Positions 35,931 to 49,048 of a DNA stretch of 64,000 nt are shown in pieces. The notes under the pieces are model-generated. The model searched no databases. It was given only the letters and a program-made list of their open reading frames with translations, and had not been told where the DNA came from. Positions within the stretch are counted from its first letter, which is position 1; each line of letters opens with the position of its first letter. A program made the translations under genes and the position numbers. The stretch comes from Candidatus Latescibacterota bacterium (GTDB lineage: Bacteria > Latescibacterota > UBA2968): the NCBI GenBank assembly GCA_022821275.1, contig JAJEDY010000083.1, forward strand, positions 124,001 through 188,000, written 5' to 3'.

Positions 35931-36338
35931 ATGACAACAACGCATTGGCGCATCGCCCTATTTGTCTGGCTACTTTTAATTTTTTTTGGTTCAAGTGGCC
36001 TGCTATCGTTCGAGAACACTGAAAAAATTTTCTTTTTTAGTGAACGAATACACCATGCGGCGCGCAAATTCGCACACATAGCGGAATATGCAATTCTGAC
36101 CTATTTGTGTTTCCGATCTCTATGGACAAAGAACCGATTTACCTCCTGTGTAGTGTGGAGCGTCCTGATATCCATTCTCTATGCGATATTGGACGAATAT
36201 CATCAATCCTTTGTACCCAGTCGCACTGGCGTCTGGACCGATGTGGTATGGGATGGCACAGGTGTCGCAATCATCATCCTATTATTGTGGTATGCGAAAC
36301 ACAGGGAAAACGGCAAAATCAGACAGTGGATTTTATAG
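35931..36338 (+). CDS. VanZ-like membrane protein
   Basis: The 135-residue protein has four hydrophobic segments and the conserved VanZ residues: KFAHIAEYAIL in the second helix region, ILDEYHQSFVPSRTG after the third, and a DVVWDGTG loop. VanZ-family proteins sit in the inner membrane; some raise tolerance to glycopeptides, most have no known task. It lies in the same direction as the LolA-like gene and the sulfatase 22 bp downstream. Confidence 0.88.
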   Translation: MTTTHWRIALFVWLLLIFFGSSGLLSFENTEKIFFFSERIHHAARKFAHIAEYAILTYLCFRSLWTKNRFTSCVVWSVLISILYAILDEYHQSFVPSRTGVWTDVVWDGTGVAIIILLLWYAKHRENGKIRQWIL

Positions 36339-36360
36339 ACTATTCAACAGGATACCCGAC

Positions 36361-37677
36361 ATGACAAAATCTGGAAAAATTGAAAAACCCAACATCCTCT
36401 TTATCCTCGCCGACGACATGGGTTGGGGCGACGTCAGCTATCACGGCTCGCATATTCGCACGCCCAACATCGACCGCCTCGCAGCCACGGGAATCGAACT
36501 CGACCAGCACTACGTCTGTCCCATGTGTACTCCCACCCGCACCTGCCTGCTCACGGGACGCCATCCCGGCCGCTTTGGACGCCACGCCACCGTCCCATCC
36601 AACGCCCCCGTCCTCCCAGATGGGTACGAAACACTCGCCTCATCCTTCCGCAATGCGGGCTACGAAACTGGCCTCTTTGGAAAATGGCATTTGGGATCCT
36701 CTCCCGAATACGGTCCCAACCAATTTGGTTTCAATACCAGCTATGGGAGTCTGGCCGGCGGCGTTGACCCGTATAACCACCGCTACAAATCAGGACCCTA
36801 CAGCGTTACCTGGCACCGCAATGGCAAACTCGTCGAAGAGCGCGGTCACGTCACCGACCTCATCGCACGAGAAGCTGTCCAGTGGATCGAAGAACAAACA
36901 GGACCCTGGTTTTGCTATGTCCCTTTCACCGCTGTTCACACCCCCATCAAAGCACCACAACACTGGATAGACCGCTATTCAGACCGGCGCTACGATCCCG
37001 ACGACAACAAAGACCGCTCATTCAAAACCTATGCCGCGTACGCCAGCCAGATGGACCACGCCATCGGCCAACTCGTCGAAACCCTTGCCCTCACCTGCCA
37101 GCGCGAAAACACCATCATCATCTTCTCATCGGACAACGGCGCCATCCCTGCCGGTCCTCTTCACGACACGGACAAATACCCGGGCCGCCACGAAGACATG
37201 CCGCGCCTGGGCAGCAACCTGCCCCTGCGAGGACAAAAATCTCAACTCTACGAAGGCGGCATTCGCACCCCATCCCTGATCAATTGGCCTTTTCATCTCC
37301 AGCCAGGCAAATGCTTTCACCCCCTCCACATAACCGATTGGATGCCAACCCTGACCAATCTCATCGGCTACACGCCCAATACCGACCCCCAATGGGATGG
37401 ACAAGACATCTGGTCCCTGCTCACGGGCGACATCGCCGTACCCGAAGAACGGTCTATCTTCTGGAACTTCAGAGGATCGTCCTTTGGCATGCGAACGGGC
37501 AATTGGAAATTGATATATGAAGAAGGCCAAACTCCCGAGGAAACCGAACTCTTTCACATCGGTTCCGACCCCTACGAAACGACAAATATTACCTCCTCAC
37601 AAACCGACCGCGTGCAGCGCATGCTCGAACACATTGCCGATGAGCGAAAACGCGACAACAGTTCAATAAGAAATTAA
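36361..37677 (+). CDS. Sulfatase (formylglycine-dependent), type 1
   Basis: ATG 36361 starts 438 residues with the sulfatase opening PNILFILADDMGWGD (metal-binding Asp18 and Asp19). The active-site motif is CTPTR at 56-60, where Cys56 is converted to formylglycine, followed by LLTGRHP. Further metal-site residues lie in GKWHLG and FSSDNGA. It lacks a signal peptide, so it may act in the cytoplasm or be exported by other means. The longer upstream frame overlaps the VanZ gene and is rejected. It desulfates a carbohydrate or aryl ester; the next gene is a second sulfatase. Confidence 0.92.
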   Translation: MTKSGKIEKPNILFILADDMGWGDVSYHGSHIRTPNIDRLAATGIELDQHYVCPMCTPTRTCLLTGRHPGRFGRHATVPSNAPVLPDGYETLASSFRNAGYETGLFGKWHLGSSPEYGPNQFGFNTSYGSLAGGVDPYNHRYKSGPYSVTWHRNGKLVEERGHVTDLIAREAVQWIEEQTGPWFCYVPFTAVHTPIKAPQHWIDRYSDRRYDPDDNKDRSFKTYAAYASQMDHAIGQLVETLALTCQRENTIIIFSSDNGAIPAGPLHDTDKYPGRHEDMPRLGSNLPLRGQKSQLYEGGIRTPSLINWPFHLQPGKCFHPLHITDWMPTLTNLIGYTPNTDPQWDGQDIWSLLTGDIAVPEERSIFWNFRGSSFGMRTGNWKLIYEEGQTPEETELFHIGSDPYETTNITSSQTDRVQRMLEHIADERKRDNSSIRN

Positions 37678-37688
37678 AAGGAGATCTT

Positions 37689-39008
37689 ATGTCCTACCGC
37701 AACGTCCTCTTACTCATAGCCGACGATTGGAGTCCTATTGCCGGATGTTATGGCAATGACATCATCAAAATGCCCAGCGTAGATGCACTTGCCGCGCGAG
37801 GCACCTTATTTAAGCACGCCTTTTGCACCACCCCATCGTGCGCAGCCAGCCGTGCCAACCTGCTCACCGGACACTACAGCCACACGCACGGACAATACGG
37901 ACACTCACACAGCATCCACAACTTCCACACGCAACTCGACATGCCGTCAATTCCCAAAACACTACAATCCGCTGGATTCACCACCGGCGTTGTCGGCAAA
38001 CTCCACGTACAACCCGAATCGGTCTATCCCTGGAACTATGAAACTGGCGGTGGACGCAACGTGCGCTCTATCGCAGACAACATCTCAAAATTCTTTGAAA
38101 GCATTGACAACGACCAGCCATTCTATCTCCACGTCGGTTATTCCGATCCCCACCGCGACTTCGGCAACAAACAAATCTATCCCGGCGTCCCCGAAGTCAC
38201 GTATTCGCCCGAGGAAGTCATCGTCCCCGATTTTTTGCCCGACCATCCAGACGTGCGATGCGAATTTGCCGAATACTACCAATCCGTCTCTCGCCTCGAC
38301 ACTGGCATTGGCATGGCCGTACAGGCACTTCAAGACGCCGGACGAACTGACGACACCCTGATCATTGTCATGAGCGACCACGGCATGCCCTTTCCCGGCG
38401 GCAAAGCCTCTTCTTTTGACACGGGCCATCACTGCCCGCTCATTATTGTGCGCCCAAATGCCGAGGCCGTTGTCAGCGACGCCCTCGTCAACTGGAACAA
38501 CATCGCCCCGACCGTCTATGAATGGTGCGGCGTTGAACCCCCAGAAGGGCTACCCGAAAAATCCCTCGTCCCCATCCTCAATGAGGCACATCCCGATGGG
38601 TTTGACGAAACCTTCTTTTCCCACACCTTCCACGAAGTCACAAATTACTATCCCTACCGGATTCTGCGCGGACGCAAATACAAATACGTGCGCAATCTCT
38701 ATCCCGAACTCACCACCCCTTTGCCCAGTGACCTGTGGGCCTCGCCCACCTGGCAAGCCATACGCAACGAAAATTTGGAAATGGGCAAACGCCGCACGGA
38801 AAAATTTCTGCATCAGGACGCCGAAGCCCTCTTCGACATTGAAAACGATCCCATGGAATCCACCAACATCATAGACGATCCCGCAGTTCAGGATATCGCC
38901 GAAGTCATGCGGCAAAAAGTTCGCACCTTCCGCAGGGAAACTCGGGACCCCTGGTGCCTGGCGTCTTACCACGCGGGCGAACCGGGTATGAGACCTGTCG
39001 CGAGGTGA
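37689..39008 (+). CDS. Sulfatase (formylglycine-dependent), type 2
   Basis: This 439-residue sulfatase starts at an ATG behind AAGGAG, 11 bp after the first one. It has RNVLLLIADDW at the N-terminus and the active-site motif CAASR at 51-55; alanine in place of proline is accepted in known C-x-(P/A)-x-R sites. GKLHVQPE, YSDPHRD and MSDHGMPFPG supply the other metal and sulfate contacts. No signal peptide is seen. The two sulfatases are only distantly related, so they likely take different sulfate esters of one polymer. A strong terminator follows. Confidence 0.9.
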   Translation: MSYRNVLLLIADDWSPIAGCYGNDIIKMPSVDALAARGTLFKHAFCTTPSCAASRANLLTGHYSHTHGQYGHSHSIHNFHTQLDMPSIPKTLQSAGFTTGVVGKLHVQPESVYPWNYETGGGRNVRSIADNISKFFESIDNDQPFYLHVGYSDPHRDFGNKQIYPGVPEVTYSPEEVIVPDFLPDHPDVRCEFAEYYQSVSRLDTGIGMAVQALQDAGRTDDTLIIVMSDHGMPFPGGKASSFDTGHHCPLIIVRPNAEAVVSDALVNWNNIAPTVYEWCGVEPPEGLPEKSLVPILNEAHPDGFDETFFSHTFHEVTNYYPYRILRGRKYKYVRNLYPELTTPLPSDLWASPTWQAIRNENLEMGKRRTEKFLHQDAEALFDIENDPMESTNIIDDPAVQDIAEVMRQKVRTFRRETRDPWCLASYHAGEPGMRPVAR

Positions 39009-39030
39009 TCGCCCTTCATACAACGAAACA

Positions 39031-39067
39031 ACCCCCGTCTAAACGTTTCAGACGGGGGTTTTATTTT
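39031..39067. terminator. Bidirectional rho-independent terminator
   Basis: A perfect 10-bp stem (ACCCCCGTCT and AGACGGGGGT) followed by T-rich sequence lies between the sulfatase pair and the convergent barrel gene. Confidence 0.92.
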
Positions 39068-39087: not shown

Positions 39088-40350
39088 CTAAAAATTGTAA
39101 GTCAGTCTCAGGTCAACAAAACTATCGCGTCGCGTATCGTAGTGGATATCTGCTTTGTCGATACTGAGAAGATGAATCGCCTCTATGTCCAGAGACAACT
39201 GGTCAGAGAGACGCCGGTCCAATTCGACAAATAGTGCGCGTGTGGAACGGCCCGCATCCCCCAGAATACTCGCGACAATTTCAGTACTCTGAACATCGTT
39301 GAATGCAATCCGCGTGGCAAAAAAGAAATCGTTCTCAAGCGTACTGGGCGAGCGACTCGGGGTCGCATTGCGCCCCCGCCCATCGTAATTCCATTCGCCG
39401 AGCAAGATGAGATCAACAGCCGAATCAAACACGGAATAAAACGTGTATTCACCGCCAAAGACAGAAGCCACATAATTTTCTTCCATACCCAGCAAATTTC
39501 GAGCGCCCGCACGTTGCATAGCCTCGAGCTTGAACAAATAGGAACCAACAGTGAGTTGCGCATCCAACCCAAACTGACGAATCTGATCATAGTACTGTAC
39601 AAATACCGGCATACCACTACTATCCACACCCGGCATTAGAAAAGGCTCCCGACTGGTACCGTTGAACACACTCACACCAGCATCGAAAGCACCGAAACTC
39701 TGACTGTACCGGGCAGCGAAATCCAGATACGCCTCGCTCTCATACTCGACATGTTCATCTTCCACCACGAGCGGGAGACGCAGGCGGCCGGATTTGCCGG
39801 GAAACGTGCGCGCCCGGTGATACGGCAAAACAAAAAATTCCACTACCCCCCAATCGCTGGACCAGGTAATATTGACCATCGGCTGTCCCAACTTCGCCTC
39901 TCCGTTTGGATGCTCGACCAGATCGATCTGATTGACAATATCGACCAGGTGTTGCGATTCTGTAACGCCCCAGAAGACCTGGTCAATACCCACGCGCAAC
40001 TCCCATTCACCATCGCCAATTTCGCCGAATACCAAAAAATAGGCTTCGCGCAAATCGGCATGGGTACGGCGTGAATCCGCGTTGTCATAGCGAAAAAACG
40101 GTGACAGCGTGAAACTTCTACCCTCGGCGTCTGCGAGATAGAGTTTGGGTAATACAACAAAGCCGATGGCATGCGCCCCCTGACCGGAAAAGGCACCGGC
40201 TTTGGGAAACCATCGGCTTTCGACATTCACGCGCCCGGAAAAATCGCGGTCAATTCCAATTTCGGCATGTGCGCCAACAGCAAAGACCAGAACCAAAATC
40301 CAGACAGCACCGAAAGGTAAAATATGAAGAGCGGTACGACGTAACATCAA
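39088..40350 (-). CDS. Outer-membrane beta-barrel protein of an RND-linked operon
   Basis: A 420-residue protein with a signal peptide (cleaved near VGAHA) and many alternating strands, ending in VDLRLTYNF with a terminal Phe as in barrel proteins. FRYDNADSRRTHADLREAYF and the VGIDQVFWG strand resemble the DUF1302/porin-type proteins that accompany MMPL transporters. It overlaps the LolA-like gene by 4 bp. It is likely the outer-membrane exit or acceptor of a trans-envelope export system for a lipid or hydrophobic product. Confidence 0.78.
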   Translation of the reverse strand: MMLRRTALHILPFGAVWILVLVFAVGAHAEIGIDRDFSGRVNVESRWFPKAGAFSGQGAHAIGFVVLPKLYLADAEGRSFTLSPFFRYDNADSRRTHADLREAYFLVFGEIGDGEWELRVGIDQVFWGVTESQHLVDIVNQIDLVEHPNGEAKLGQPMVNITWSSDWGVVEFFVLPYHRARTFPGKSGRLRLPLVVEDEHVEYESEAYLDFAARYSQSFGAFDAGVSVFNGTSREPFLMPGVDSSGMPVFVQYYDQIRQFGLDAQLTVGSYLFKLEAMQRAGARNLLGMEENYVASVFGGEYTFYSVFDSAVDLILLGEWNYDGRGRNATPSRSPSTLENDFFFATRIAFNDVQSTEIVASILGDAGRSTRALFVELDRRLSDQLSLDIEAIHLLSIDKADIHYDTRRDSFVDLRLTYNF

Positions 40351-41156
40351 CGCACCCGTTTCAGCCCAGTTTGTGTGAAATCGCGATCGTTGAGATCAGT
40401 CTGAAACTCAAAATCCGTCCAGGTCAGAACCGTACTTTTCCCGGTTAAATGATTGACCATCGTCATCTCACCAGCACGCCAATAACGCGCCAGATACTGC
40501 GCGTAATTCCCCAGAGTGAGTGTCTTCAGATGGGCATCCTTGCGGTCGTAATACTCTACTTTCCAGACGCGTAACTCATCCTTATCGCGCCAGACCACCT
40601 GGCGACTATAGCCCGATTTCTTATCCACGGGAAAGCGTTCTGTAACCGTGCATGTCAAATCGCCATATGCCTCGTCGCGCAGGTAACGATAGGTAAATTT
40701 CTCCACAGCCTGAGGGGTCAGATCCTCATAAGCAAATTCACTTCCCATAAAAGAGCCGGACTGGTTGGACGAACTAATGCGTTTGACGCGTTTCAGAGCA
40801 GGCAAATAAAGCCATTGGTCGTCCGCGCTTTCCCTATGCGCGTGAATAAGCAACGCCGTTCCCTTGACATCGCGCGGTTCATCGAACACAAACAGACTCT
40901 TGTCGCCATCTTCGGAGACCTCGAGAACCTTTACCCGTAGTTGGCGACGGCTCTCTTGCCCGTGTTTGTTGCGCAACATCATGGTTTGCTGAGCCGTAAA
41001 ATTGCCAAAACCCTTCTCGCGATCCTGGGAATCCTGAGCGATTTTCAACCCGGTTTCCTCTGCACTTTCGGAACGAGCGGGTGATGACACGCCGAGACAA
41101 AACAAAATAATTGGACAAAGCGCGAAAAACAGGTGTATTGGTCGTATTGGTATCAT
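40347..41156 (-). CDS. Outer-membrane lipoprotein-sorting protein (LolA-like, PF17131 type)
   Basis: The 269-residue protein has a signal peptide (hydrophobic 8-23) and the LolA-like family blocks LFVFDEPRDVKGTALL, WLYLPALKRVKRIS, FMGSEFAYEDL and a C-terminal FTQTGLKRV. Proteins of this family are encoded with RND/MMPL permeases and are thought to carry hydrophobic cargo through the periplasm. Its ends overlap both neighbours by 4 bp, which means tight translational coupling in a three-gene export operon. Confidence 0.88.
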   Translation of the reverse strand: MIPIRPIHLFFALCPIILFCLGVSSPARSESAEETGLKIAQDSQDREKGFGNFTAQQTMMLRNKHGQESRRQLRVKVLEVSEDGDKSLFVFDEPRDVKGTALLIHAHRESADDQWLYLPALKRVKRISSSNQSGSFMGSEFAYEDLTPQAVEKFTYRYLRDEAYGDLTCTVTERFPVDKKSGYSRQVVWRDKDELRVWKVEYYDRKDAHLKTLTLGNYAQYLARYWRAGEMTMVNHLTGKSTVLTWTDFEFQTDLNDRDFTQTGLKRVR

Positions 41157-43435
41157 GAATTTCTCCGATCAATGGCAATCAGTAGAGTTGGAAGAAGCAA
41201 AAAGTCGGCAACAAGCGCGAAGACAATCGTAATCGTGACCAAAAGGCCGAGTGCCCAACTCACCTCAAATCCCGATGTGGCGAACACCAGAAATCCCACT
41301 GACAACACTGCGGTCGTCGTCCATAACGCATGGCCCACCGTGTTAAAAGTATAGCGCACGGCCTCGGATGCGGGACGGCCCTCGCGTCGAGCCTTCAGAT
41401 ATTTGCTCAAAAAATGAATCGTATCATCCACGACAATCCCAAAAACAACGGCAATCACCACCGAAGAGGCAATGCCCACATGACCGACGAGATAGCCCCA
41501 CAGGCCGAAGCTCATAATCGCGGGAATAAAGTTGGGCAGAAGACTGAGGAGACCGACTCGAACACTCTTGAAGATCCAGATCAAAATGAACGAGATAAGT
41601 GCCATCGCAGTAATCGTACCGCGCAACATGCTATTGATATTCCGCAGCGTCAGATGGGCAGCGATGATGCTCAGACCCGATGCTTCGTTTGCAAAAGCGG
41701 GCGCATTTGCCTGGAGCCAGGCCTGTGCGCGTTTATCGAGCTCACGCAGATCTCGTGACCACGCATTCCTGGTCACGACACTCAGGCGCGTAGCGGATTT
41801 TGCAACATCTATGCGATCATTGAGATCACTGCCAAACGGAAGCGAAAGCTCGTAAAGCAACAGATACTGCGCCGCGAGACCCGGGTCTTCGGGCAAGAGA
41901 TAAAAAGCGGGATCATCGCCGTGCATGTTTTTATTGAGGCGTTTCATAATATCCGAAAATGCCTGGACATGGGTCACTTCGGGTTGTCCTCGGTACCACT
42001 CGGCAAAAGCATCGACCTGGCGCAGATAATCCGGATCAGTAATACCGCCTTCGCGCCCTGCACTCAGTGAATATTCCAGCTTATCTACACCCGTCAAGTT
42101 TTCAATAATATAATCCGTATCGCGCCGGAACTCGTAGCGATCATCAAAATACTGCGCCAGATTATCGCTCAGTTCGATGCGGTGAACGCCGATTATCAGG
42201 ACAATGACTACCAGACTGACAAACCAGAGCAAAAATTTGCGCCGGGCAATGACAAAGTCGGCAAAGCGATCAAAAAAGACAGTTCCCTCGGACTGAACAC
42301 GGGGGGCGCGCAACGGCAGAATCGAAAGCAATGCCGGCAATAGCGTCATGGTGTACACAAGCGCACATAATACACCAAATGCCACGTAATTGCCCAGAAC
42401 GTGAAAAGGCGGCGAATCTGAAGCATTCAGACTGAGGAACCCAATCGCCGTCGTGACCGAGGTGATAAATATCGGATAGGCATTGATGCGGATCGATTCG
42501 ACAATCGCCGCATTTCTGTCCAGACCGCGCCTCATACCCAGTAAAACACTCGTGACAATGTGTATTGAATCAGCAATGGCGATCACCATGACGATAATCG
42601 GCACGCCAGCATTGGTGGGGCTGAACACCACGCCATTCCACCCGGCGAATCCCATGGTCGTATTGATGACAAATACCAGCACGGCGACAATGGCCAAAGT
42701 GCTGAGAATCGAGCGCAGGAGAATAATAGTGGCACCTACAATGATGAGAAACACAATAGGTGTCAGGGTCTCCATGTCGTTCTTCGTAACATCGGCGAAA
42801 GTCCGATCCATGACGACATCGCCGGTCATGTAATAATCGATATCCGGGTGACTCGTACGGGCCTTGTCGAGAACCGAATTGAGATAATCGGTAATTTCGA
42901 TCACTGCCTGGTCCGCATTTTCGGGCAAGATGAAATTAATCGCCACCCCTGCCGTGCGCCCATCATGAGACACCAGACGCCCAACAATTTCGATTGCATT
43001 CAGCGCGCTCTCTTCGATACGCGCCACATCGGCATCGCTCAGTGAAGATGCGTCATCGACGAGCGGAGCGACAACCAAATCGTCATCGAGTGCTTCGCTA
43101 TGGGTATAATTGGTAAGGGAATTGACGCGACTGGAATAAGGCGCACGCCAGGCGGCTTCGGTCAATTCTTCAACCGCGCCAAGCACCTCGCGAGTGAACA
43201 CCGAGCCATCTCGCGGCGCAACGGCAATCAGTACTGCTTTGGAGGCCGAATACGTGTTCTCCAGAGCGTCGAACGCGGCGAGTTGCGGATTGTCTTCGCC
43301 AAACAGAATGCGGTAATCATTCGTAACGGTGATGAAGCGAACACCTGCCGTAATAGCCAACATGACCAGCGTTGCGAGCGCAACGACCAACCAGCGATAG
43401 CGCAAAACTGCATCGGTGTAGCGTTCTAATTGCAA
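41153..43435 (-). CDS. RND/MMPL superfamily transporter
   Basis: TTG 43435 follows GAAGGAGTG and starts 760 residues. The layout is two repeats of one N-terminal helix, a periplasmic loop and five clustered helices (about 220-400 and 600-755), as in MMPL/HpnN-type proteins. Charged residues within helices occur in IVVDDTIHFLSKYL near the second repeat. Members use proton flux to move lipids or hydrophobic compounds from the inner membrane. The gene is coupled to a LolA-like carrier and a barrel protein, giving a complete route to the outer membrane. Confidence 0.9.
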   Translation of the reverse strand: MQLERYTDAVLRYRWLVVALATLVMLAITAGVRFITVTNDYRILFGEDNPQLAAFDALENTYSASKAVLIAVAPRDGSVFTREVLGAVEELTEAAWRAPYSSRVNSLTNYTHSEALDDDLVVAPLVDDASSLSDADVARIEESALNAIEIVGRLVSHDGRTAGVAINFILPENADQAVIEITDYLNSVLDKARTSHPDIDYYMTGDVVMDRTFADVTKNDMETLTPIVFLIIVGATIILLRSILSTLAIVAVLVFVINTTMGFAGWNGVVFSPTNAGVPIIVMVIAIADSIHIVTSVLLGMRRGLDRNAAIVESIRINAYPIFITSVTTAIGFLSLNASDSPPFHVLGNYVAFGVLCALVYTMTLLPALLSILPLRAPRVQSEGTVFFDRFADFVIARRKFLLWFVSLVVIVLIIGVHRIELSDNLAQYFDDRYEFRRDTDYIIENLTGVDKLEYSLSAGREGGITDPDYLRQVDAFAEWYRGQPEVTHVQAFSDIMKRLNKNMHGDDPAFYLLPEDPGLAAQYLLLYELSLPFGSDLNDRIDVAKSATRLSVVTRNAWSRDLRELDKRAQAWLQANAPAFANEASGLSIIAAHLTLRNINSMLRGTITAMALISFILIWIFKSVRVGLLSLLPNFIPAIMSFGLWGYLVGHVGIASSVVIAVVFGIVVDDTIHFLSKYLKARREGRPASEAVRYTFNTVGHALWTTTAVLSVGFLVFATSGFEVSWALGLLVTITIVFALVADFLLLPTLLIAIDRRNS

Positions 43436-43441
43436 AAGTAG

Positions 43442-43546
43442 TCACTCCTTCGACCATTTCGGATTAAGTGCGAAGACGAGTTGTTCACCGAGGCGAATGC
43501 CTGGCACTATCGACACCGCCAGTGGATAAAGACCGTCATACCTCAC
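43442..43546 (-). CDS. Possible 34-aa ORF ahead of the RND gene
   Basis: A GTG at 43546 opens a short frame (VRYDGLYPLAVSIVPGIRLG and so on) that stops at 43442; its last codons contain the ribosome site of the RND gene. The residues look protein-like, with mixed hydrophobic and charged character, but no ribosome site precedes the GTG. It may be a leader peptide, the remnant C-terminus of a lost gene, or chance. Confidence 0.25.
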   Translation of the reverse strand: MRYDGLYPLAVSIVPGIRLGEQLVFALNPKWSKE

Positions 43547-44717
43547 CACGGCTTCGACTCGTCTGCGTGTAGCTTGTCGGGCAATCGGTAACTGATTTTA
43601 TGTTCTTCGAGCGTAGATACGTTGAGCAAGGCCATGAAGTTTTGGGTACGGTGCCCCGGTCTCCACCATAGCAGGACATTGAGGATATCCTGGATTCTGC
43701 GCCTCAGCCGCAAATATACCAGTGTCCCGGTCCTGGATATTCGACTTTTTGGAAACATGAGTTGGTCGGCGAGTTCGTCTCCAATCAACGTTCGGGAAAG
43801 GCGGTACCCAAAACCAGATAGATTATCTCGCTCTTTCTCGTCTTCAATACCGATCACGTAAGGAGCCGAGGCAATCACCGAGTTTGCCATAGCAATAGCT
43901 TCCAGACCGGGAGGCGGCTCGCAGATGTAACCCACGCGGTATATTTCGCAGGCTTCGGTCTCATTGCTGAACAGAGTGCATCGGGCACACCCATCAGATG
44001 CGCGGTATAGCGCCATATCTGCATAAAACTGTCGCGTTCTTCATCGTTTAGACGTGCGCCAATTCGCGTGGCTGACCGCAACAGCATCCCGGAAAAATTA
44101 CAGGACGCGAGCGCGATGTGGGCAGCACTGATCGGCATGCCGTGGGCTTCATGGTCCCACTCCTCAGAAGCGAGAAGATGCCGCCTGACCTGTGCATGCA
44201 CCAGCCGCAGACGGACAGACAGTTTCCAGCCCTCGCCATGTCGCTCCAGGCCACCCGGCAACATAATCTCTAAAAGGTGAAGTATATTTTGCTTTAGCCG
44301 CCGCACCCCATAATCGGTCAGCCTTCCTGTGGTGAAAAACGATTGGCTGATCAGCGTCGTGAAACCCTGTACAATAATATCCACGACGAACGAGGTGAGA
44401 AACAGATCCGAATAGGCTTGGAAGCCACGGCATCCGGGATATACTGAATCGGAATCAAACCACGCGGGCGGAGTCCCGATTTTCTCAAAAAACGCCCGTA
44501 CTGCCTGAGGCGCATCACGCAGTTTTTCCTCATCCAGATCCATTCCAGCCCTGATAAATACGCCCTGTTGCTTCTCGTCAATACCGGCTAATCCATTGAT
44601 CAGAGCATCGGCATCGGGATCGCCGATGAGCGTGTGCTGGATGTATGTTTTGGCGAGGTCGGGATCGGTCAGAAGGGCCTCTTTGTACCCGGGCTGATAG
44701 GAGGAAGGTATTTGCAC
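43543..44717 (-). pseudogene. DUF2236 (MpaB-like oxygenase) gene with a frameshift
   Basis: Two overlapping frames make one DUF2236 protein. The first (GTG 44717, behind GAGGTG) runs through DPDADALINGLAG, VDIIVQGFTTLIS and the conserved IWRYTAHLMGVPDAL, then leaves the family. The continuation LFSNETEACEIYRVGYICEP lies in the next phase. One missing base between about 43972 and 43983 explains the break. DUF2236 proteins are haem-type oxygenases such as rubber oxygenase and MpaB. The rest of the sequence is well preserved, so the change is recent, a sequencing error, or programmed shifting. Confidence 0.75.
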
Positions 44718-45364: not shown

Positions 45365-46822
45365 TTATTGCGCGGCGTCTTTCCATCTCTGATAATTTGG
45401 CGACAGACTCAGCGCGCCATCGGGCTGCGGCACGAGTTCTCCATTTTGTCCTCTCGGATCGCCCCGGTTTTCATTCACCTCTGCCAATCGCCTGCGCCAC
45501 ATCGCGATGCGCGTTTCGTAAGCCGGGTCTTTGGACAATTCGCAGCATTCCAATGGATCGTCATCCAGATTAAAAAACTGTTCTTCTCCCGTGTGATGAA
45601 ACCAGATATACTTCTCGTGTCCATCGGTCACATATTGCATGCCGTGCTCTCTTGTATAGCACGTCGTATGCTCGCCCTGCACAAACGCACGCCACCCCTC
45701 GTCATCTCCCCGCGCAATATCCAGAAGAGACCGTCCATCTACAGACGCAGGTATATCGCCCCCGGCAGCATCGAGCAAGGTGGGCATCACATCGCGCAAC
45801 TCCACCGGATGATCACACTTCACCCCTCGCGCCACATCGCCCCATGTATCGGGATATTTCACAATAAACGGAATGCGTGCAGACCCTTCGTACGCATACG
45901 TCTTTCGCCAGTGGTGGTGGTCGCCCATCATATCGCCGTGATCAGATGTAAAAATAATCAAAGTATTGCGATATGCTTGCGGGTCCCGATGGCGCAACTC
46001 GTACAGCACGCGCCCAATCTGGTGATCGATAAACGTGATATTGCCGTAATATCCCGCGCGTCCCCTGTGTGTTTCAACATCGGAACGGTGCGAACGCGGC
46101 GCATTGACATCCGCGATCTTTTTATCAAACTCTGCTGCCCAGTCTCCCACAGCGGCTTTGGGAATATTGTCATTGTCAATATACATATCCCAATACGCCT
46201 GAGGCGCATCATAAGGCGAATGAGGACGTGCAAATGAAAGCCACATAAAAAACGGTTTGGTCGGATCGCGCTGCTCCAAAAATTTAATTCCCTCGCTCGC
46301 CGTCCAGTGCGTCGGATGCAAATGCTCGGGCAAATGACTGGGCCGCGCCATCCATGAATTCCAATCGATACTGTGATCCCGGTACCCGTAAGCACCTTCC
46401 TTGTGCTGCTCAAAAAACAAATGATAATCGCTGATAAAATTTCCCATCCGCCGCCCACTTTCATCCAGCACCATGTGGTGAAAACCATATAGCCTGCGCT
46501 GCGGGGCATGGTGCATCTTGCCCACAGCCTGCGTGTGATATCCCGCCGCTGCGAGTTCTCCCGGCAATGTCGCCGGATATTCCAGCGGGTGGCTTCCCGT
46601 CATTGTCAGCCGCCCGTGATTCCATTGATCCATCCCCGTGATAATCCCCGCACGTGCAGGCGTACACGATGGCACCGATGTATAGGCGTGGGGGAAATGC
46701 GCTCCCCGTTCGGCCATTTCATCGAGATACGGCGTCTCCAGCGCCGGATGCCCATCACACCCGAGGCAATCTCCGCGCTGTTGATCTGTCGTAATCAACA
46801 ACAAATTAGGTCGCTCTGACAT
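45365..46822 (-). CDS. Sulfatase (formylglycine-dependent), type 3
   Basis: ATG 46822 gives 485 residues beginning RPNLLLITTDQQRGD. The active site is CTPAR at 53-57 with Cys53 as formylglycine precursor, and other metal-site residues are in GKMHHAPQ, FARPHSPYD and FTSDHGDMMGDHHH. The protein has no signal peptide. It resembles choline-sulfatase or phosphonate monoesterase-type members by its DQQR opening, so the ester could be of either kind. It follows two dipeptidase genes with an 11-bp gap. Confidence 0.9.
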   Translation of the reverse strand: MSERPNLLLITTDQQRGDCLGCDGHPALETPYLDEMAERGAHFPHAYTSVPSCTPARAGIITGMDQWNHGRLTMTGSHPLEYPATLPGELAAAGYHTQAVGKMHHAPQRRLYGFHHMVLDESGRRMGNFISDYHLFFEQHKEGAYGYRDHSIDWNSWMARPSHLPEHLHPTHWTASEGIKFLEQRDPTKPFFMWLSFARPHSPYDAPQAYWDMYIDNDNIPKAAVGDWAAEFDKKIADVNAPRSHRSDVETHRGRAGYYGNITFIDHQIGRVLYELRHRDPQAYRNTLIIFTSDHGDMMGDHHHWRKTYAYEGSARIPFIVKYPDTWGDVARGVKCDHPVELRDVMPTLLDAAGGDIPASVDGRSLLDIARGDDEGWRAFVQGEHTTCYTREHGMQYVTDGHEKYIWFHHTGEEQFFNLDDDPLECCELSKDPAYETRIAMWRRRLAEVNENRGDPRGQNGELVPQPDGALSLSPNYQRWKDAAQ

Positions 46823-46833
46823 TTTGTATCCTC

Positions 46834-47919
46834 TCACTTTTCCCACACCGATTTCAACAACCGCACCCAATTTCCCGACAACACCTTTTGAATATCTTCT
46901 CGTGAATATCCGCGCCGTTTAAAAATGGGCACCAGATTCTGCAAATCGGCAATTGTATTCAAATCTCGCGGCGATTGTTCCTGGCCATATCCCCCATCTA
47001 GATCCGTCCCAATACCCGAATGATTCGCATTGCCAGCAAGCTGACACACATGATCGATGTGATCGACCACCGTCTCGAGCGTCGCCTTTGTGGTCTGCTC
47101 ATAACACGGCACGCCCCGCTTCCACTCTGGATCGAGCATCCACGCATCAAAAGCCGCGCCAATAACCCCATCGCGTTCTACAATTGCGCGGATCATATCA
47201 TCTGTCAACTGCCTCTGCCCCGGCGTCAATGCCCGGCAATTGTGATGGCTTGCAGCCACCGGTCCGTCGTAATAATCGAGAATTTCCCAGAAAGCCCGAT
47301 CGGTCGTATGCGTCAAATCCACAATAATCCCCGCGGCTTTGAGCGCGTTGAGCAATGGCCTGCCCCGATCCAACAATCCCCCTTCCGTCCCTGTCCCGTG
47401 GCAATAAGAACTCACGCCATAATGCGAAATACTCACCATTTTCAAGCCCAAATCCCGCCATTCGGACACCTGATCGGGATCGAGAATCGGATCGGCGCTT
47501 TCCATCGCCAGTACCAGACCGATGGGGGTATCTGCCGAAGGCTGTGCCCATGCCGCAACGCACGCGTCCAAATCCTCAGCCGTATGAATCTGCCGGATAA
47601 TCCCCCGTCGTTCCATCGCCTTATAAAAGGCATAATGCCCCATCCCGACACCGTGACATTGCGTCTGATCCCACATCCCCGTGCGCGTCCAGCGATCATT
47701 GGTATCAATACGCGACATCACCGTACCAAAAACAATCCCCACTCGCCCCCTGTGCAACTCGGGAAACGTGGTCGTACACGACCCAAAACTGCGCGTAGTT
47801 GGTTCCGAGTCGTGTACCCGCACAGTTGCGGCGGGCTGCGTGAGATCGCGGTTGACCTGAATCGCGCAAAAGGCGAGGTCTAAATGGCTATCGACAATAA
47901 AGTAAGTATGATCGGACAT
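46834..47919 (-). CDS. Membrane dipeptidase (M19 family), copy 2
   Basis: ATG 47919 starts 361 residues with the metal motif VDSHLDLAF (H-x-D). Further zinc ligands appear in AMESADP (bridging glutamate), DLTHTTDRAFW and AASHHNCRAL. M19 enzymes hydrolyse dipeptides, including those with a D-residue at the C-terminus, and some act on beta-lactams. Unlike renal dipeptidase it has no signal peptide. The start lies 1 bp from the stop of the first copy. The two copies share most motifs. Confidence 0.9.
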   Translation of the reverse strand: MSDHTYFIVDSHLDLAFCAIQVNRDLTQPAATVRVHDSEPTTRSFGSCTTTFPELHRGRVGIVFGTVMSRIDTNDRWTRTGMWDQTQCHGVGMGHYAFYKAMERRGIIRQIHTAEDLDACVAAWAQPSADTPIGLVLAMESADPILDPDQVSEWRDLGLKMVSISHYGVSSYCHGTGTEGGLLDRGRPLLNALKAAGIIVDLTHTTDRAFWEILDYYDGPVAASHHNCRALTPGQRQLTDDMIRAIVERDGVIGAAFDAWMLDPEWKRGVPCYEQTTKATLETVVDHIDHVCQLAGNANHSGIGTDLDGGYGQEQSPRDLNTIADLQNLVPIFKRRGYSREDIQKVLSGNWVRLLKSVWEK

Positions 47920-47920
47920 A

Positions 47921-49048
47921 TCATCCCCATGCCGTCGTAAAAAATCGCACCAAATTCCCATGCGCAAACCCCTTCACATCGTCTTCTCCATAGCCGTGAT
48001 CGCGCATGAGATTTAGAAAACGCTGCAAATCGTCAATCGTATGATAATCTGTGGGCGAAAGCTCCAGCCCAAAACCACCGTCCAGATCCGTCCCATAAGC
48101 CACGTGATCTGTGCTGCCAGTCAGTTCACAGATGTGATCGATGTGTTCGAGTACTGCTTTCATCGGTCGGGTTGCCGTGGTATAATGCGTACTCGGATCG
48201 TCCCAATTCCATGCAGGAGACAACATCTGCTCGGCAAAAACCATCCCAATTACGCCACCCCGGTCCGTGATCGCGCGAATCATATCATCCGACAAATGCC
48301 GCTGCCCCGGCACCAATGCGCGACAATTGCAATGGCTGGCATGCACTGGTCCCTTCCAATAATCGAGAATATGCCAGAAGGTGAGGTCTGCCGCATGCGT
48401 CAGATCCAGCGCAATATCGGTCTCAGACAGCGCGTCCATCAGCGCGTAAGCCGGAGGATATAGCCCACCCACCGTACCCGTGCCATGCCCATACGTATTG
48501 GCACCAAAATGCGTCAAAGACACAGAGCGCAGTCCCGCTTCATACCATTCGCCCACCTGATCGGGACCCAGAATCGGATCGGCGCTTTCCATCGACAAAA
48601 TAAGCCCTACGGGCGTATCTTCAGATGGATTCTCCCAGTCAGCAACACAGGCATTGAGATCTGCAACAGACTTGATAAATCGAATTTCCCCACACCGTTC
48701 CAGCGCCCGATAATACGCCAGATGAGATTGCCCACGCGCATAAGCCACATCCTGTGTGCGCACCGCATTGTGCGTATTATCATGTGGATTTTGCACGCGA
48801 CACATAATGGTCGAAAGCATAATCCCCACGCGTCCTTTTCTCATCTCGGGCAAACAAACAGTTGGCGTAAACCGCTTGGGCTGTGGTCCCTGGCGTTTCT
48901 CCAGCGAATCTGGATGGGTCGATAATCCCCCCACCATACTGTCTTCGCGCTCGCGCAACACATATACAGACTGCGTGAGGTCCCGGCGGTAAAACAGCGC
49001 ATTAAACGCCATATCGAGATGCCCATCAATAATCAAATATTCGCGCAT
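47921..49048 (-). CDS. Membrane dipeptidase (M19 family), copy 1
   Basis: The 375-residue protein starts at ATG 49048 with REYLIIDGHLDMAF, giving the H-x-D zinc site. The bridging glutamate is in SMESADPILG, and DLTHAADLTFW, ASHCNCRAL and GTDLDGGFG supply other conserved positions. It is the first gene of a four-gene operon (two dipeptidases, sulfatase and EVE protein). A TTG six codons upstream is an alternative start. Side-by-side duplication and divergence suggests two related dipeptide substrates. Confidence 0.9.
   Translation of the reverse strand: MREYLIIDGHLDMAFNALFYRRDLTQSVYVLREREDSMVGGLSTHPDSLEKRQGPQPKRFTPTVCLPEMRKGRVGIMLSTIMCRVQNPHDNTHNAVRTQDVAYARGQSHLAYYRALERCGEIRFIKSVADLNACVADWENPSEDTPVGLILSMESADPILGPDQVGEWYEAGLRSVSLTHFGANTYGHGTGTVGGLYPPAYALMDALSETDIALDLTHAADLTFWHILDYWKGPVHASHCNCRALVPGQRHLSDDMIRAITDRGGVIGMVFAEQMLSPAWNWDDPSTHYTTATRPMKAVLEHIDHICELTGSTDHVAYGTDLDGGFGLELSPTDYHTIDDLQRFLNLMRDHGYGEDDVKGFAHGNLVRFFTTAWG

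Follow-up and report, generated by a model that had tools for sequence, protein, structure and literature searches.

Background

It is still an open question how hydrophobic lipids other than lipopolysaccharide, phospholipids and lipoproteins travel to the outer membrane. We study here a locus that bears on it, a compact operon on the minus strand of a 64,000-nucleotide stretch of a Candidatus Latescibacterota bacterium (assembly GCA_022821275.1, contig JAJEDY010000083.1, positions 124,001 to 188,000), the whole of which is called the window below. An original prediction had described there three overlapping genes for an RND/MMPL transporter, a LolA-like carrier and an outer-membrane barrel, and had read them as a complete lipid route with an unknown cargo. 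What, then, does this triad carry? The parts of the route and their conservation stand. The prediction had missed a fourth gene, co-directional and directly upstream of the RND gene, which encodes an oxygenase of the MPAB_Lcp_cat family, the family of MpaB and latex clearing protein (Lcp), and in relatives the locus is linked to genes of isoprenoid synthesis. The cargo therefore becomes a testable guess: the four genes would form one unit exporting a linear isoprenoid, probably squalene-derived and oxidised in the manner of Lcp, to the outer membrane, a reading to which we give an even chance.

The triad alone is of an already known kind, represented by RND and LolA-like export sets such as those of AmeABCD and the aryl polyenes. 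The new part, as far as searches of the open-access literature tell, is its tie to an Lcp-type oxygenase and to isoprenoid synthesis; in the literature searched we found no paper connecting an MpaB/Lcp-type oxygenase with an RND-LolA-barrel triad.

Methods

Relatives were sought in public genomes with the carrier profile alone, and the best 80 of at least 574 found (L059-L138) are the basis of the locus counts. These were split into an oxygenase-type clade (L059-L078, n = 20), the loci L079-L093 (n = 15) and ordinary triads (L094-L138, n = 45). The genome set comprised 60 genomes, including that of the window (G000). For the isoprenoid-gene count, IspH, squalene/phytoene synthase (SQS), polyprenyl synthase (PPS) and IspG were searched with family hidden Markov models (HMMs) within about 7 kb of each locus.

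Results

An Lcp-like oxygenase upstream of the triad

The fourth gene (44717-43543, minus strand) is the sole PF09995 match in its own genome. It is split over two frames (Table 1) by a frameshift near 43.97 kb, which may be genuine or may stem from the assembly; relatives with the whole gene have a single frame of about 391 amino acids (aa). The N-terminal part matches residues 1-250 of a relative's intact 391-aa protein at 98% identity, the C-terminal part its residues 243-391 at 95%, and both the window fragment (57.5 bits) and the intact relative (67.9 bits) exceed the MPAB_Lcp_cat cut-off of 23. The gene is only partial in L039 and L063. Inspection of the sequence revealed no signal stretch at its start.

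The intact relative's protein was modelled with a mean predicted local distance difference test score (pLDDT) of 86.9. In the structure comparison the model matched Lcp (Z 30.8, 337 residues, 3.3 Å), then t-anethole oxygenase (Z 18.4), the next row having a Z of 7.3. Lcp itself uses oxygen to cleave isoprene C=C bonds. In the alignment, Lcp His198 is matched by H174, a residue shared by all of 19 sequences, and Lcp Arg164 by R140; passages of PMC5522427 give His198 as the proximal haem ligand, Arg164 as essential and Lys167 as 59% conserved among Lcps. As modelled, the oxygenase keeps the Lcp fold and the haem site. It shares with Lcp and t-anethole oxygenase the fold, the proximal histidine and the Arg164 equivalent; it differs from Lcp in its sequence (about 17% identity), in three active-site positions considered below and in its linkage to genes of biosynthesis and export instead of rubber degradation. 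This suggests that the rubber-oxygenase family may have a biosynthetic branch beside the degradative one.

One relative carries the oxygenase gene as a tandem duplicate before the triad (L028:3271-5779, the same as L059:2106-4614), the copies being about 79% identical.

Isoprenoid genes near the locus

Isoprenoid genes were found near 11 of the 20 loci of the oxygenase-type clade, 1 of the 15 loci L079-L093 and 2 of the 45 ordinary triads. The enrichment of the first set over the last gave a Fisher p of 1e-5 (9/16 and p 3e-5 after removal of four near-duplicates), and sorting by oxygenase presence gave 9/16 loci with it versus 5/64 without (p 6e-5), these values being guides only because the loci are related by descent. 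Further isoprenoid neighbours are DXS in L065 and flavin adenine dinucleotide (FAD) oxidoreductases of the HpnE/CrtI superfamily in L061, L064, L070 and L073. The isoprenoid genes are co-directional with the triad in L061, L068, L069 and L078. The run is SQS, IspH, oxygenase, RND (split in two open reading frames), FAD oxidase, LolA and barrel in L061; oxygenase, RND, LolA, barrel, PPS, SQS and IspH in L068; and SQS, oxygenase, RND, LolA and barrel in L078. The carrier tree places L061 and L040 among the near relatives of the window; each has SQS as well as IspH. In L068, L066, L040 and L078 the synthase comes closest to squalene synthase without reaching its curated cut-off; in L073 the synthase pair qualifies as HpnC and HpnD and the oxidoreductase as HpnE.

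The association was also seen in whole genomes. The squalene/phytoene synthase family is present in all 14 genomes tested from the 16 loci with the oxygenase (L059 and L060 were not included), weakly in one of them (G066). Within family f4 of the window's class (n = 25), SQS and the oxygenase occur together in 7 genomes, each alone in 1 and neither in 16 (p 1e-4), a count that excludes the weak SQS matches of G024, G032 and G035 (E about 1e-22 to 1e-24). The window's own genome has an HpnC/HpnD-like synthase pair and an FAD oxidoreductase on contig C73.

A cargo that is simply a hopanoid was rejected: the C-terminal domain of squalene-hopene cyclase has 0 matches in the window's genome and exceeds its cut-off in only 5 of the 60 relatives. 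The domain is strong (E <1e-50) in 5 of the 14 oxygenase genomes, where a hopanoid is conceivable. The oxygenase genomes of L064, L066, L068, L069 and L074 hold unusually long cyclase-domain proteins (open frames of about 1150-1230 aa).

The three parts of the triad

All three predicted open reading frames are present (Table 1), and Pfam, PDB relatives and a model of the barrel agree with an inner-membrane pump, a periplasmic carrier of hydrophobic cargo and an outer-membrane barrel. As to the 4-bp overlaps claimed for both junctions, the one between RND and carrier genes is there (ATGA), whereas that between carrier and barrel genes requires the barrel to start at TTG 40350. This junction reads TTGATG, with an in-frame ATG right after the TTG, so that a start at 40347 with a 1-bp overlap (TGATG) is equally likely; relatives have the same TTG/ATG pair. 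The RND gene starts with TTG, and AAGGAG can be read 9 nt upstream.

The RND protein belongs to MMPL (PF03176, 96 bits against a gathering cut-off of 20.5). Its closest PDB relatives are MmpL5/MmpL4, followed by HpnN, and its charged membrane residues D670 and H292 are each kept in 78/78 family members, D289 in 57/78. With 159.9 bits against the curated 351.9 of TIGR00921, it is HAE3-like but not a member of the HAE3 subfamily. Identity with the HpnN hopanoid transporter was ruled out (92.1 against 751.85 for TIGR03480, 34.3 against 1100 for NF052374), as was identity with the BstA sterol transporter (35.8 bits against a curated 1400).

The carrier is a LolA_like protein (206.7 bits against a cut-off of 30, profile positions 2-184 of 184) with a single hydrophobic stretch, the N-terminal signal. 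Its PDB relatives are 3bk5 (E 5e-83) and 9tp6 (E 3e-33). The latter, LolA3 of Porphyromonas, is described with a hydrophobic groove in passages of PMC13103446, and by homology the window carrier is predicted to have one too.

The barrel has a signal stretch, a C-terminal Phe and an AlphaFold2 model of about 20 strands, built from 16 sequences with a moderate pLDDT of 68.9. DUF1302 (PF06980) matches it with 26.8 bits against a cut-off of 23.2, over 78 residues and profile positions 133-216 of 541 only. A profile of the barrel itself had no match among PDB sequences, and the barrel fold therefore rests on the model, which Foldseek placed with AlgE/porins (E 1e-9) at only about 10% identity, a match that shows a barrel and nothing further.

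Table 1. Features of the four-gene locus (window coordinates)
Feature	Position	Strand	Details
MpaB/Lcp-type haem oxygenase, N-terminal part	43875-44717	-	PF09995, E 2.6e-15
Same oxygenase gene, C-terminal part, other frame	43543-44016	-	family HMM, E 2e-61
RND/MMPL (HAE3-like) inner-membrane transporter	41153-43435	-	760 aa; PF03176, E 2.7e-27
Periplasmic LolA-like carrier	40347-41156	-	269 aa; PF17131 (LolA_like), E 3e-61
Outer-membrane beta-barrel	39088-40350 (start may be ATG 40347)	-	420 aa; weak DUF1302 match, PF06980, E 3.3e-6
Intrinsic-terminator-like hairpin, 14 pairs	39030-39060	-	3' of the operon

Terminator-like matches number 7 in the region versus 6.6 in shuffled sequences, yet the next best stem after the hairpin of Table 1 has only 7 pairs.

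Distribution of the triad and the oxygenase

A survey of the triad, which could have told against the predicted route, instead revealed the same gene order in many phyla. An RND gene is present in 63 of the 80 carrier loci, a barrel gene in 68 and both in 57, a conservation far above chance; among the ordinary triads the set is complete in 38/45. The oxygenase accompanies the triad at 16 of these 80 loci. Within the genome set the window-type carrier occurs in 19 of the 60 genomes (18 whole and 1 divided between contig ends); each of the 19 also has an oxygenase match, partial in G018 and G042 and frameshifted in G000; no oxygenase was found in the two genomes of this set with a more distant carrier (G014 and G043).

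The carrier tree, a quick build with many open forks and support from the Shimodaira-Hasegawa-like approximate likelihood ratio test (SH-aLRT) only, falls into two sides: one, with good support, has 42 rows and comprises all oxygenase loci and a second group, and the other has 45 rows with the ordinary triads. Records of the oxygenase group are titled Latescibacterota, Opitutia, Gemmatimonadota, Nitrospirales, Bryobacterales, Gammaproteobacteria and others; these phylum names are as given in the record titles, and L062, titled Gemmatimonadota, has a carrier sequence identical to that of G017, from the window's own order. This mix, rough as titles and tree are, suggests that the cassette has moved across phyla. 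The bin names of records match sponge species listed in parts of PMC8163846 and one title names Spongia, so a sponge association is likely.

Discussion

From these results we infer a route of four steps. An Lcp/MpaB-type haem oxygenase lacking a signal peptide would act on a linear isoprenoid of cytoplasmic origin, oxidising and probably cleaving one of its C=C bonds, with squalene or another C30 compound as the first candidate. The RND/MMPL protein, driven by protons, would lift the product from the inner membrane, the LolA-like carrier would ferry it across the periplasm in its hydrophobic groove, and the barrel would take it over and insert it into, or pass it through, the outer membrane. 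For the genome of the window, isoprenoids would be supplied from outside the locus, namely by the synthase pair and oxidoreductase on contig C73. Gene linkage connects this compact route with one definite class of cargo, which makes it testable in E. coli with a single transferred cassette.

Several observations weigh against this proposal. The oxygenase gene is broken in the present assembly. Lcp Lys167 is replaced by Gln and Thr168 by Asn, and Glu148 falls near a Thr in a part of the alignment that is weak; as the lysine, threonine and glutamate of the distal site of Lcp are replaced, the residue set of Lcp proper is absent and cleavage is not assured. The weakest point for the window itself is that its 64 kb contain no isoprenoid gene, sulfatases and a dipeptidase being found instead. 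None of the four isoprenoid genes is in reach in 7 of the 16 oxygenase loci (L059, L060, L062, L063, L064, L067 and L074), and L072, L073 and L086 have isoprenoid genes where no oxygenase was found. Moreover, the oxygenase and SQS occur without a window-type carrier in the f4 genomes G034 and G046, as does an HpnC/D-type pair without the triad in G007 and G008, two members of the genus.

The AmeABCD and aryl polyene genes are the nearest working analogues of the triad, a Thalassolituus fusion described below being a further one. According to passages of PMC6394551, AmeABCD of Castellaniella defragrans likewise joins in one cassette an HAE3-like RND protein, a LolA-superfamily periplasmic protein and an outer-membrane protein, the last being of DUF1302 type there; it has a terpenoid cargo, and its deletion lowers monoterpene tolerance. 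Like AmeABCD with monoterpenes, the triad might expel toxic hydrophobic compounds, which the oxygenase would detoxify or degrade; in keeping with such a self-protective efflux, Thalassolituus grown on alkanes produces a fusion of MMPL and LolA whose neighbour is a porin (described in part of PMC6304351) and Lcp-family enzymes act in rubber breakdown (passages of PMC5658616). However, AmeB is a DUF1329 protein (451 aa), a COG4447 protein (AmeC) is present and the cargo is a monoterpene used as growth substrate, whereas the window operon has a PF17131 carrier, an Lcp-type oxygenase and, by Pfam, no AmeC-like protein among its genes. The linked genes are moreover biosynthetic (IspG, IspH, an FPP-type synthase, squalene synthase and, in L065, DXS) and not catabolic, and we regard efflux as unlikely. 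Biosynthetic linkage is also why we prefer export to uptake, by which barrel, carrier and RND protein would import a host isoprenoid or sterol for the oxygenase to cleave as food. BstA is, by the name of its NCBIfam model, an RND member for bacterial sterol transport, and many records seem to be sponge sets of metagenome-assembled genomes (bin names, partly checked); the linked genes, however, make isoprenoids and the window protein falls short of the BstA model by the margin given above, which leaves uptake quite improbable.

The aryl polyene set ApeL-ApeM-ApeN, as described in passages of PMC8253772, also combines a LolA-like chaperone with an RND protein, both dedicated to a hydrophobic outer-membrane natural product; in place of the barrel found here it has a LolB-like DUF3261 protein, and its cargo is an aryl polyene. 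HpnN resembles the window protein as an MMPL/HAE3-type RND for a triterpenoid, but is described, in passages of PMC6394551, as working without periplasmic or outer-membrane partners. Could the triad instead deliver a house-keeping lipid or lipoproteins, with the oxygenase and isoprenoid genes as functionally unrelated neighbours? The oxygenase-free triad is widespread (45 loci, several with TetR-type regulators nearby and not biosynthetic genes), and the PDB relatives of the carrier are named lipoprotein-sorting proteins, the LolA3 of PMC13103446 among them. Against this, oxygenase and isoprenoid genes cluster with one subclade across several phyla and genes for ribosomally synthesised and post-translationally modified peptides (RiPPs) stand beside the sister group, both of which point to a dedicated cargo; general delivery is thus, in our view, also a rather poor candidate.

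Beyond the window, the export of an oxidised isoprenoid might be part of a mobile pathway of sponge-associated bacteria of several phyla, in which squalene synthase makes a linear triterpenoid, a globin-fold Lcp-like oxygenase cuts or oxidises it, and the RND-LolA-barrel set exports it to the surface, a sister LolA-barrel pair serving halogenated RiPPs likewise. We offer this tentatively and hold it to be somewhat doubtful; if true, it would reveal a new kind of surface lipid, and sponge symbionts of unrelated phyla may then share one unknown isoprenoid surface lipid.

In the sister group itself (L079-L093) the carrier, frequently together with the barrel, adjoins peptide natural-product genes, namely those for C39-type ABC transporters, tryptophan halogenase, YcaO, a desaturase and NHLP-type precursors, at least one of these being present in 11 of 15 loci. 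Examples of such srp-like RiPP neighbours among L079-L092 are L082, L084, L085 and L092, and HlyD also occurs among the neighbours. Clusters of the srp type are known from sponges (PMC9426513, PMC10858898), and the passages searched in these papers mention no LolA-barrel pair. The arrangement suggests a LolA-barrel outlet for halogenated peptides in L079-L092 and supports the view of carrier and barrel as a portable outlet for hydrophobic products.

Two other LolA-type proteins of the window's genome were considered as similar routes and rejected, one adjoining FtsK (a true LolA, PF03548) and the other two FtsX/MacB permeases. The latter, the second LolA_like protein of this genome (G000:C90:28101-28643, L043), resembles an ABC-driven version of the route.

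In the window the operon is flanked by three sulfatase genes (36181-39008, plus strand; 45365-46870, minus strand) and an M19 dipeptidase gene (46834-47967). These flanks were not found around the operon in the loci of other families and are kept in near relatives of the same genus.

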